A stretch of 64,000 bases of DNA, from positions 186,001-250,000 of the forward strand of contig NZ_KZ319289.1 in the NCBI RefSeq assembly GCF_002744755.1, given 5' to 3'. The notes below the pieces were generated by a model. The model was not told the origin of the DNA and searched no databases. It saw only the letters and a list, made by a program, of their open reading frames with translations. Positions 10,750 through 16,664 of this stretch are shown piece by piece. Source of the stretch: Leeuwenhoekiella nanhaiensis (GTDB lineage Bacteria > Bacteroidota > Bacteroidia > Flavobacteriales > Flavobacteriaceae). Each line of letters starts with the position of its first letter. Position 1 is the first letter of the stretch. Position numbers and translations under genes: made by a program.

Positions 10750-10763
10750 AAAAATTAATTTTT

Positions 10764-10841
10764 GGGGTACCCGACCCCGGTTATAATTTAAAAATAAGCC
10801 CTCTGCTTAACGTTAAGCAGACTGCTGTCTTTATTGAGGGC
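10764..10841 (-). promoter_or_regulatory. Structured leader of rpsP
   Basis: The stretch between the rpsP promoter and its ATG holds a perfect 20-base palindrome, TCTGCTTAACGTTAAGCAGA (10802-10821). It is bracketed by GCCCTC (10798-10803) and GAGGGC (10836-10841), which can pair with each other in competition with the palindrome ends. Nearer the start codon is a second hairpin, GGGGT/ACCCC (10764-10778). All lie inside the predicted 5' leader. The arrangement could be an autoregulatory or stability element. Confidence 0.45.
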
Positions 10842-15142: not shown

Positions 15143-15613
15143 TTATTTTGGATTAAAATTTTCCGCATCAAACTCTTCGCCTTCTAGAATAGAGTCTTTT
15201 ATTTTCTCTTCAAAGATGAAAAAGTGCCGTTCTGTAATTTCATAAGTACAGCATTTGCCTAAGAATCCATTAAATTTTTTATAAACTGTGTATTCTTCAT
15301 TTTGGTACTCAATTCTATTTGGATAGACAGGATATAGCGTAATAGAATTTATGATTCCAAGAAAAATTCCACCAAAAAGAAACATTGAGAGAAACAAGAG
15401 CGGTGTTAAGAGGTAAGCGGAAAAATAAATAGCAACCTTTTTAAAAGGGTGGATATATGAAAAGAATAAAATTAATCCTGACAGGTAAACTCCTAAAATT
15501 ATTGCATACGCTAATTGATAATTAAGGCTAATCTCAAAGATATTTTTAGCTGTAAAATTGGCAAGCGCCAGAACAAAAAGGGTAAAATGAATTTTGTAAA
15601 GTTTACGTCTCAT
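15143..15613 (-). CDS. Hypothetical membrane protein
   Basis: A 156-residue protein with about four hydrophobic segments between residues 8 and 95, then a hydrophilic C-terminal domain with a Cys-Cys pair (LGKCCTYE) and an acidic end. I do not recognise a family. The frame extends to 15694, but that extension lies inside a candidate structured RNA and its terminator, so the ATG at 15613 (MRRKLYKIHF) is preferred. It is downstream of that RNA and of the polysaccharide locus on the same strand, but the terminator probably separates it. Confidence 0.6.
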   Translation of the reverse strand: MRRKLYKIHFTLFVLALANFTAKNIFEISLNYQLAYAIILGVYLSGLILFFSYIHPFKKVAIYFSAYLLTPLLFLSMFLFGGIFLGIINSITLYPVYPNRIEYQNEEYTVYKKFNGFLGKCCTYEITERHFFIFEEKIKDSILEGEEFDAENFNPK

Positions 15614-15642
15614 TAAGTTGTACAATAGCCTAAATATAGTTA

Positions 15643-15679
15643 AAAACAAAAAAGCCTCTCCGCCTAAGGTGGAAAAGCT
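15643..15679 (-). terminator. Terminator of the candidate small RNA
   Basis: On the minus strand the stem AGCTTTTCC / GGAGAGGCT, with two G-T pairs and an inner CC/GG extension, is followed by a T-rich tract. It would also separate the polysaccharide operon from the hypothetical membrane protein gene downstream. Confidence 0.7.
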
Positions 15680-15772
15680 TCTCAAAGGTTTCACTACAAA
15701 ACCAGTCTTCCGTTGCCGGAAGACAACACAACTTCTTTATAAGGACCGGCAGCGCCGGATTGTTTTCTGAAT
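15646..15772 (-). ncRNA. Candidate structured small RNA
   Basis: About 127 bases on the minus strand with four successive hairpins: CCGGC/GCCGG (plus 15746-15758); GTCTTCCG-GCAA-CGGAAGAC, an 8-bp stem with a GNRA loop (15705-15724); GGTTT/AAACC (15687-15703); and a terminator stem AGCTTTTCC/GGAGAGGCT (15653-15679, two G-T pairs) followed by TTTTTTGTTTT. A -7 box precedes it. No convincing reading frame fits. It does not match the SRP RNA core motif or a tRNA as far as can be judged by eye; the class is unknown. Confidence 0.55.
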
Positions 15773-15778
15773 AAAGCA

Positions 15779-15786
15779 CAAAAATA
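15779..15786 (-). promoter_or_regulatory. -7 box for the candidate small RNA
   Basis: TATTTTTG on the minus strand fits TAnnTTTG and would start transcription just before the first hairpin. No clear -33 TTG is seen in the A/T-rich stretch upstream. Confidence 0.45.
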
Positions 15787-15824
15787 GCATTACTTTTTTA
15801 ATTTTTATGCTGTAATCTCCATTT

Positions 15825-16664
15825 TTAGGGTTGAATTTCTACTAAAGTATAAACCGGCAAATGGTCTGAAGCGTAGTGCAGATTTTTAGAATCGCTTAGT
15901 GTGGCGTGTTTCAATACTTTAACCGGACTCGTTTTACCCACAAAAATATAGTCGATGCGGCGGGTTACCGGTTGGTCAAAATCAAAACCATTAAAAGTGC
16001 CTTCCGGTCCAAAAGAACCGCTTAAGCTCGCTTTAAAGGTGTCTTTTAATTGTGTTTCCAAAACTGCAACAGGTTCAGAGTCGGGTTCCAGATTAAAGTC
16101 GCCGGTGACAAAAACCGGATAATTCAGGCTGTTGATTTCGCGTATCTGGTCAAGTATTAATTGGGCGCTGTATTTACGGGCTTCAACTCCTACGTGATCA
16201 AAATGCGTATTGAAGACATAAAAGCGGGCATCGGTTTCTTTGATTTCAAACAAGGCATAGGTGCAAATTCGGGGTAGCGCAGCGTCCCAGCCGGTAGAGA
16301 TTTCTTTCGGCGTAGTTGAGAGCCAAAAGGTATCACTTGCTATGAGTTCCAGTTTTTCCGCTTTGTAAAAAATCGCGGAAAATTCGCCTTTGTTTTCACC
16401 TTCACGACCAACTCCCACGTGTTTGTACCCGGTAAGATTTTCGCCCAAATACTGCATTTGTTCGGGTAAGGCTTCCTGTACGCCCATTACATCGGGAGCA
16501 TAAAAAAGTACCTGAGCGGTCAGAAATTCCTTGCGCTTACTCCAGGCGTCGTCCCCGTCAGATTCTGTAGCCATCCTGATGTTGTAGGTCATTAGACTGA
16601 GTTCCTGAGCCGGTAAAAGATTAAGGCCAAAAAGTGCAAAAAGAAGGAGAGCTGTAAACTTCAT
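15825..16664 (-). CDS. Exported endonuclease/exonuclease/phosphatase-fold hydrolase
   Basis: A 279-residue exported enzyme of the EEP superfamily, Mg-dependent phosphodiesterases/phosphatases that include DNase I, sphingomyelinases and inositol phosphatases. A signal peptide precedes LPAQELSLMTYNIRM. Family motifs are GVQEALPEQM (metal-binding Glu), NTHFDHVG, VTGDFNLEPDS, RRIDYIFV and ASDHLPV. It is the last gene of the polysaccharide operon, 78 bases after the sulfatase. In this setting it could remove a phosphodiester substituent from the glycan, but the family alone does not say so. The fold is certain; the substrate is unknown. Confidence 0.88.
   Translation of the reverse strand: MKFTALLLFALFGLNLLPAQELSLMTYNIRMATESDGDDAWSKRKEFLTAQVLFYAPDVMGVQEALPEQMQYLGENLTGYKHVGVGREGENKGEFSAIFYKAEKLELIASDTFWLSTTPKEISTGWDAALPRICTYALFEIKETDARFYVFNTHFDHVGVEARKYSAQLILDQIREINSLNYPVFVTGDFNLEPDSEPVAVLETQLKDTFKASLSGSFGPEGTFNGFDFDQPVTRRIDYIFVGKTSPVKVLKHATLSDSKNLHYASDHLPVYTLVEIQP

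Follow-up and report, generated by a model that had tools for sequence, protein, structure and literature searches.

Regulatory RNAs can derive from sequence next to a tRNA, as do the tRNA spacer RNAs of the 3'ETS-leuZ type in E. coli. Among the Bacteroidota, the FopS/GibS small RNAs (sRNAs) of Bacteroides are described as having a single-stranded 5' seed, an intrinsic terminator and paralogues in one genome, and FopS was deposited in Rfam by its authors (PMC11697453). In Flavobacterium psychrophilum, Rfp18 is described as a strongly structured RNA, conserved in Flavobacterium and with at least three stem-loops, whose loss lowers the mRNA of two metalloproteases (PMC9723704). Two further RNAs, 6S-flavo and Flavo-1, are named in PMC2864571, the available portion of which names no tRNA-linked motif.

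Here we describe an RNA encoded in a 64,000-nucleotide stretch of the Leeuwenhoekiella nanhaiensis genome (hereafter the window). Compared by description, it resembles FopS/GibS as a Bacteroidota sRNA with a putative single-stranded 5' seed and an intrinsic terminator; but whereas FopS, as far as its available description goes, is a single-stranded 5' stretch followed by a terminator, the present RNA adds two hairpins and usually lies behind tRNA-Asp. Unlike the 3'ETS-leuZ type, it is family-wide and structured and has its own terminator, and in some lineages it stands apart from any tRNA behind its own promoter box. Our preferred reading, with a probability of roughly 0.6, is that the locus is an RNA gene equipped with a promoter and an intrinsic terminator of its own, acting in trans through a 5'-terminal seed, and that it represents the Leeuwenhoekiella form of a new RNA family. 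On the sequence comparisons, that it is a real, conserved sRNA seems to us close to certain.

The RNA lies on the minus strand. A preliminary description of this DNA had reported four hairpins, an 8-bp stem capped by a GNRA loop, a strong terminator and a TAnnTTTG box, on the same strand as the polysaccharide operon. Each of these was recovered: sequence and fold place the hairpins as hp1, hp2, hp3 and the terminator (table 1), the GNRA-capped stem is hp2 with its GCAA loop, the terminator ends in six T's, the sequence at the predicted promoter fits the box, and RNA and neighbouring genes share the minus strand. The 141 nt of the minus strand from 15786 to 15646 fold at -46.2 kcal/mol, against a mean of -34.04 (sd 3.75) in 200 dinucleotide shuffles (z -3.24), none of which folded as well. 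On the plus strand, 15600-15800 likewise folds a little better than its shuffles (z -2.53, 1 of 200 as good), as palindromic sequence does whichever strand is read. That the structure in the window is more than chance follows from the presence of the RNA in all 13 genomes of the genus and from the covariation of hp2. The least conserved part is hp1, which is absent from the RNAalifold consensus of the 13 genus sequences. The predicted transcript is about 125-130 nt long here and about 85 nt elsewhere. A coding explanation was rejected: a GTG-start open reading frame (ORF) at 15143-15694 (-) overlaps the RNA, but its in-frame ATG at 15613 lies beyond the RNA, and only one of the 13 genus loci has the 156-aa product, as against 13 of 13 for the RNA.

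Table 1. Features of the RNA, in window coordinates; R1 and R2 are covariance models.
Feature	Position	Strand	Basis or remark
Putative promoter box TAnnTTTG (TATTTTTG)	15786-15779	(-)	predicted +1 at ~15774
Variable 5' leader, including hp1	15735..15774	(-)	outside the family-wide core
hp1, CCGGC-GCU-GCCGG stem-loop	15758-15746	(-)	sequence and fold
Family-wide conserved core	15647..15734	(-)	covariance-model positions 1-85 of 85; R1 77.9 bits, R2 73.3 bits
Conserved 5' motif GUUGUGUUG, proposed seed	15724..15732	(-)	homologue comparison
hp2, GUCUUCCG-GCAA-CGGAAGAC, 8-bp stem, GNRA loop	15724-15705	(-)	strongest covariation
hp3, GGUUUUGUAGUGAAACC, GGUUU/AAACC stem, conserved GUAGU in the loop region	15703-15687	(-)	fold and covariation
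Conserved linker UUUGAGAAGC (elsewhere in Flavobacteriaceae often AAUGAGAAGC)	15677..15686	(-)	homologue comparison
Intrinsic terminator, stem and six T's	15683-15648	(-)	fold; pairing in homologues

With a 201-nt region as query, blastn hit every one of the 13 Leeuwenhoekiella genomes once, with 72-98% identity over 61-189 nt outside the query's own genome. In three of them the match was partial (61-99 nt), yet the whole core was present when the loci were read. Across the family, a core of ~85 nt recurs. It consists of the motif GUUGUGUUG, with an exact match in 83 of the 97 distinct homologues, followed by a hairpin that varies, by a second hairpin (GGUUU...AAACC, for example), by a linker (for instance AAUGAGAAGC) and by the terminator. 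To follow it, two covariance models were used, R1, built from ten sequences, and R2, built from 100 hits; the search for the R2 input took 88 of 139 loci, leaving out near-duplicates, chance hits in the window's own genome and weak blastn loci. In the resulting alignment A4 (100 rows, 97 distinct), which was fitted to the structure under test, 88.7% of cells pair and the covariation score is 0.469, against 0.172 in shuffled alignments and reached by none of 500 shuffles; structures or partners slid along the same alignment score 0.13 or less. The terminator helices pair in 97.0% and 92.6% of cells over the 97 distinct homologues. An alignment of the 13 genus sequences made with MAFFT, and so not fitted to the structure, led RNAalifold to predict hp2, hp3 and the terminator, with changes on both sides in 7 of 26 pairs, six of them in hp2 (6 of its 7 pairs). 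The stems therefore covary in both alignments, bearing out a check proposed in the preliminary description, though covariation is weak in an unfitted MAFFT alignment of ten diverse sequences, where the score was reached by 41 of 500 shuffles and the number of further pair types was matched by 383 of 500; we ascribe this weakness to the varying length of the hairpins. The longest stem between motif and linker averages 8.05 pairs, against 5.73 in shuffled regions, in 92 of the 97 homologues (five lacking motif or linker were dropped), a comparison that is not wholly model-free, R1 having served to find these homologues. Within 34 nt downstream of the motif, the longest stem is capped by a tetraloop in 40 of 92 homologues, and 21 of the 40 tetraloops are GNRA. 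Three loci (L057:505-566, L087:1177-1262 and L035:2299-2367) keep the linker and terminator with no intact GTTGTGTTG end, and are apparently decayed copies.

The RNA is widespread in Flavobacteriaceae. At E<=1e-5, R2 matched 191 of 239 genomes of the family, from 187 of 235 genera, and left 48 of the 239 without a match; some 50 of these genomes had fed the model, and when they are left out about 140 of 187 match. At the looser E<=1e-3, R1 matched 283 of 397, a count that is likely inflated because weak matches at this threshold are common outside the family, and we thus use the count at E<=1e-5. At that stricter threshold, a class sample (295 genomes, members of the family included) gave nine matches in the family and one outside (G519, without the motif), and an order sample (148 genomes, likewise including the family) gave 21 in the family and one outside (G769). 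At E<=1e-3, 23 genomes outside Flavobacteriaceae in the class sample have a weak match. No whole core was found in the ten loci from these genomes that were read, and the weak matches outside the family look like chance terminators. One of them, L150 (genome G590, 40 bits, reverse strand), has an exact GTTGTGTTG directly before the terminator with neither hp2 nor hp3, and would be either a chance occurrence or a reduced relative; another, L155, carries GTTGTGTAA. The carriers include, among the matches listed, Flavobacterium, Myroides, Kordia, Avrilella, Paenimyroides and Leeuwenhoekiella. Five contigs bear titles from outside this group (L174, L190, L193, L227 and L283, titled Nitrotoga, Chryseobacterium, Sphingobacterium, Rhizobium and Bifidobacterium); since they share long alignments with contigs of Flavobacterium or other flavobacteria, the titles probably reflect wrong bins or names. 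The window copy had no blastn match in phage and plasmid collections, while three viral contigs (L329, L330, L331) match the sequence patterns of the RNA.

The genomic surroundings of the homologues point to one neighbour. An upstream tRNA on the same strand lies within the fetched stretch for 70 of the 100 model hits, and the nearest is tRNA-Asp(GTC) in 70 of 70; in 60 of the 100 it lies within 80 nt, the closest spacing being 6 nt. Searches by sequence pattern agree: 108 of 121 pattern matches on 120 titled contigs, among the matches listed, lie within 200 nt behind tRNA-Asp. The other 13, among the same matches listed, include stand-alone copies (two in Leeuwenhoekiella, one in Avrilella), three copies behind a 3' fragment of tRNA-Asp only (L184, L201, L277), five at the edge of the stretch (L193, L196, L246, L259, L274) and two ambiguous cases (L219, L231). 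Fragments of tRNA-Asp also lie upstream of L089, L098 (twice), L101, L040 and L124, and may be what integrating elements would leave behind. Copies of the RNA beside 3' fragments of tRNA-Asp were seen in L087, L089, L098, L101, L124, L184, L201, L277, L330 and L331. It is as if integrating elements used tRNA-Asp as their attachment site and carried the RNA along. Two copies in L087 (668-752 and 3007-3091) are identical over 85 nt. Judged by eye, the RNA of viral contig L329 follows an apparently near-whole tRNA-Asp and that of L330 a tRNA-Asp fragment; in L331 the fragment lies close to the opposite end of the contig. Tandem arrays of two to four tRNA-Asp genes occur in L168, L208, L224, L031 and L135 (Myroides, Paenimyroides and others); L031 has one RNA per tRNA-Asp, and L168 two pattern matches for four tRNAs. 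Several of the tRNA-linked copies have, by eye, an extra terminator-like hairpin between the tRNA and the core.

Leeuwenhoekiella has a different layout. Each of its 13 genomes has a single tRNA-Asp match, and what comes after it is not the RNA but different sequence with a terminator-like hairpin (by eye). Run on these 13 tRNA-Asp loci, R2 gave six weak matches, the best three of which (L318, L319 and L321; 23.6-27.6 bits) span the tRNA and its terminator without the motif and may be a worn-down remnant of the RNA. By eye, L316, L317, L320 and L323-L328 share a conserved-looking stretch after tRNA-Asp that includes a terminator palindrome (around TGTAAATCATATGATTTACA) as well as another inverted repeat; this is possibly another small RNA or an attachment region. 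The RNA itself appears to have its own promoter here: each of the 13 genus copies has a TAnnTTTG box some 40-55 nt upstream of its core. When the bases of that stretch are shuffled, the probability that a box turns up anywhere in it is 2-12% per sequence. Outside the genus we considered 17 copies chosen by eye as lacking a close tRNA, among them L084 and L115, which have one 239 and 332 nt upstream. A box occurs within 100 nt in 11 of the 17 and is missing from the other six. In six of the 17, from six genomes (L105, L107, L115, L129, L132 and L138), it stands directly before the core, separated from the G of GUUGUG by four bases in five copies and by five in L129. The box is placed at -12 to -5 in the account of F. 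psychrophilum (PMC9723704); with this spacing, transcription is predicted to start at the G of GUUGUG in the five copies and one base earlier in L129. Predicted promoters directly before the core thus point to the functional 5' end of the RNA, and to a function apart from the tRNA.

Known families do not account for the locus. At the gathering score, no family of Rfam 15 matches the RNA in the window or in the sets of 20 and 10 loci scanned, and a relaxed scan of 15500-15900 returned seven matches, each below its own gathering score; the Rfam/Infernal check that the preliminary description had proposed, naming Flavo-1 and 6S, hence yielded no known family. The window's only Rfam match at gathering score is an S16-Flavobacteria ribosomal protein leader (RF03138) at 10754-10787 (-). 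Flavo-1 (RF01705) is likewise a Bacteroidota sRNA, with a 76-position model, but that model finds no match to the RNA, though it fires at L167:118-196, a separate element about 2 kb from the RNA in the same locus. Similarly, 6S-Flavo (RF01685) is a flavobacterial sRNA of similar length, but the genome's only match to it is on another contig (G000:C6:207322-207442), with 83.2 bits, just under Rfam's 85-bit cutoff. A literature search found no description of a tRNA-Asp-linked RNA of this kind. Judged by the databases searched, the RNA family would be new, and its gene layout is unusual, although Rfp18, compared by description, may be the same RNA.

What could such an RNA do? In the folded cores (90 of the 97 homologues), the first 8 nt have an unpaired probability above 0.8 in 87 of 90, with a mean of 0.96 against 0.30 for the rest. 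Base-pairing sRNAs are built in this way, with a conserved, unpaired motif at the 5' end ahead of hairpins and a terminator, and from this architecture we infer a seed mechanism. In the full transcript of the window the motif is only 0.60 unpaired, and the leader may partly pair with it. The functional unit would be the core starting at 5'-GUUGUGUUG. In tRNA-linked genomes this core would be cut from the tRNA-Asp transcript, or read through from it, while in stand-alone genomes a separate promoter would start the RNA at the core or upstream of it. The unpaired 5' motif, possibly together with the GUAGU loop of hp3, would then pair with mRNAs in trans, on the model of the FopS/GibS sRNAs of Bacteroides and their 5' seed; hp2 and the terminator would stabilize the RNA, and linkage to tRNA-Asp would couple the dose of the sRNA to transcription of the tRNA, and hence to growth. 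We regard action in trans, apart from the tRNA, as quite probable, and pairing through the 5' motif as the main mode as an even bet. The genome holds 26 sites of CAACACAAC (raw counts), one being the RNA's own complement and one lying within 60 nt before an ORF start; a reversed-pattern control is useless for this word because it reads the same backwards. Within the window, sites with up to one mismatch number 8, against 14.8 expected, and so show no excess. A duplex scan over the 49 window ORFs singled out no piece of the RNA: the seed was matched by its shuffled versions in 22 of 60 trials, the leader in 29 of 60 and the hp3-linker piece in 59 of 60.

The prevailing position behind tRNA-Asp invites another account, namely that the RNA serves the tRNA-Asp transcript as its trailer and terminator and is retained for correct 3' processing or termination, with the stand-alone copies as relics of rearrangement. 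The 60 of 100 hits within 80 nt of the tRNA, and the 108 of 121 matches within 200 nt on titled contigs, among the matches listed, are what this account would lead one to expect. In Leeuwenhoekiella, however, all 13 genomes have different sequence after tRNA-Asp, complete with a terminator-like hairpin, and keep the RNA at another site, preceded by a promoter box; six predicted stand-alone promoters stand directly before the core; the hairpin seen by eye between tRNA and core in several linked copies again looks like another terminator; and a mere terminator needs no conserved unpaired GUUGUGUUG. We consider this account improbable. The conserved motif can also be explained without antisense pairing, if the RNA binds a protein, as a sponge, a scaffold or part of a housekeeping particle, through contacts in GUUGUGUUG, the loop of hp3 and the AAUGAGAAGC linker. 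Such an RNA might well show three conserved sequence blocks besides its stems, recurrent GNRA loops (21 of 40 tetraloops) and no target in searches of the genome and the window, as is the case here, but no candidate protein was identified, and the block with the highest conservation is at the same time the most accessible one and sits at the 5' end. Seeds are often just such a block. A protein-binding role therefore strikes us as unlikely, if less so than a role as trailer. Somewhat less doubtful again, though still unlikely, is that the RNA is the Leeuwenhoekiella homologue of Rfp18, since the latter is likewise structured, conserved in Flavobacterium and endowed with at least three stem-loops, a likeness by description (PMC9723704), and many Flavobacterium contigs carry the RNA among the matches listed; against it, the available portion of the same source mentions no tRNA link for Rfp18.

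The surroundings in the window suggest a further possibility. The RNA's neighbours are genes for an S9 peptidase, a 156-aa protein, an Exo_endo_phos protein and a sulfatase, the last being part of a polysaccharide locus with SusC/D-like and GH3 genes. The 156-aa protein (15143-15613, minus strand), between the RNA and the S9 peptidase gene, has no Pfam match and occurs in one of the 13 genus loci. The preliminary description had proposed either an independent sRNA or a 3'-end-derived regulator of this locus. The second half of that proposal has in its favor that the RNA shares the strand of the polysaccharide locus and that the Exo_endo_phos gene adjoins it in 10 of 13 genus loci (the S9 gene is near it in 10 as well, the sulfatase in nine). 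On balance it is not supported: the RNA has its own promoter box, which lies within the gap; in three genus loci (L018-L020) none of the four tested neighbours is found within about 1.5 kb of the RNA; elsewhere the RNA lies mostly behind tRNA-Asp; and pieces of the RNA pair with the start regions of the 49 window ORFs no better than shuffled pieces do. The 13 genus loci gave no sign in the sequence that the RNA belongs functionally to the polysaccharide locus, and we deem a 3'-end-derived regulator very improbable. The first half, an independent sRNA, fared well, at the level of sequence, with the box in 13 of 13 genus copies, covariation, presence across the family and no Rfam match.

Taking the preferred reading, that of a trans-acting sRNA with a 5' seed, a wider scenario can be tentatively put forward, to which we would give somewhat less than even odds. 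The RNA would be a near-universal sRNA of Flavobacteriaceae, ancestrally the 3' half of the tRNA-Asp transcription unit, such that synthesis of tRNA-Asp would also make a global antisense regulator. A few lineages, Leeuwenhoekiella among them, would have freed it and given it a separate promoter, from which it would start at the seed in some of them, while elements integrating at tRNA-Asp would carry a copy and keep the arrangement. The split between tRNA-linked and stand-alone copies amounts to a natural experiment, one that indicates where the functional RNA has its 5' end, and the usual place directly behind tRNA-Asp would make the RNA easy to overlook. It is found in about 75-80% of the sampled genomes of a large and ecologically important family, with no Rfam match. 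Flavobacteriaceae are major degraders of marine polysaccharides, and to our knowledge little is known of RNA-based regulation in them; for such regulation, the present work provides a defined, testable RNA with a candidate seed.
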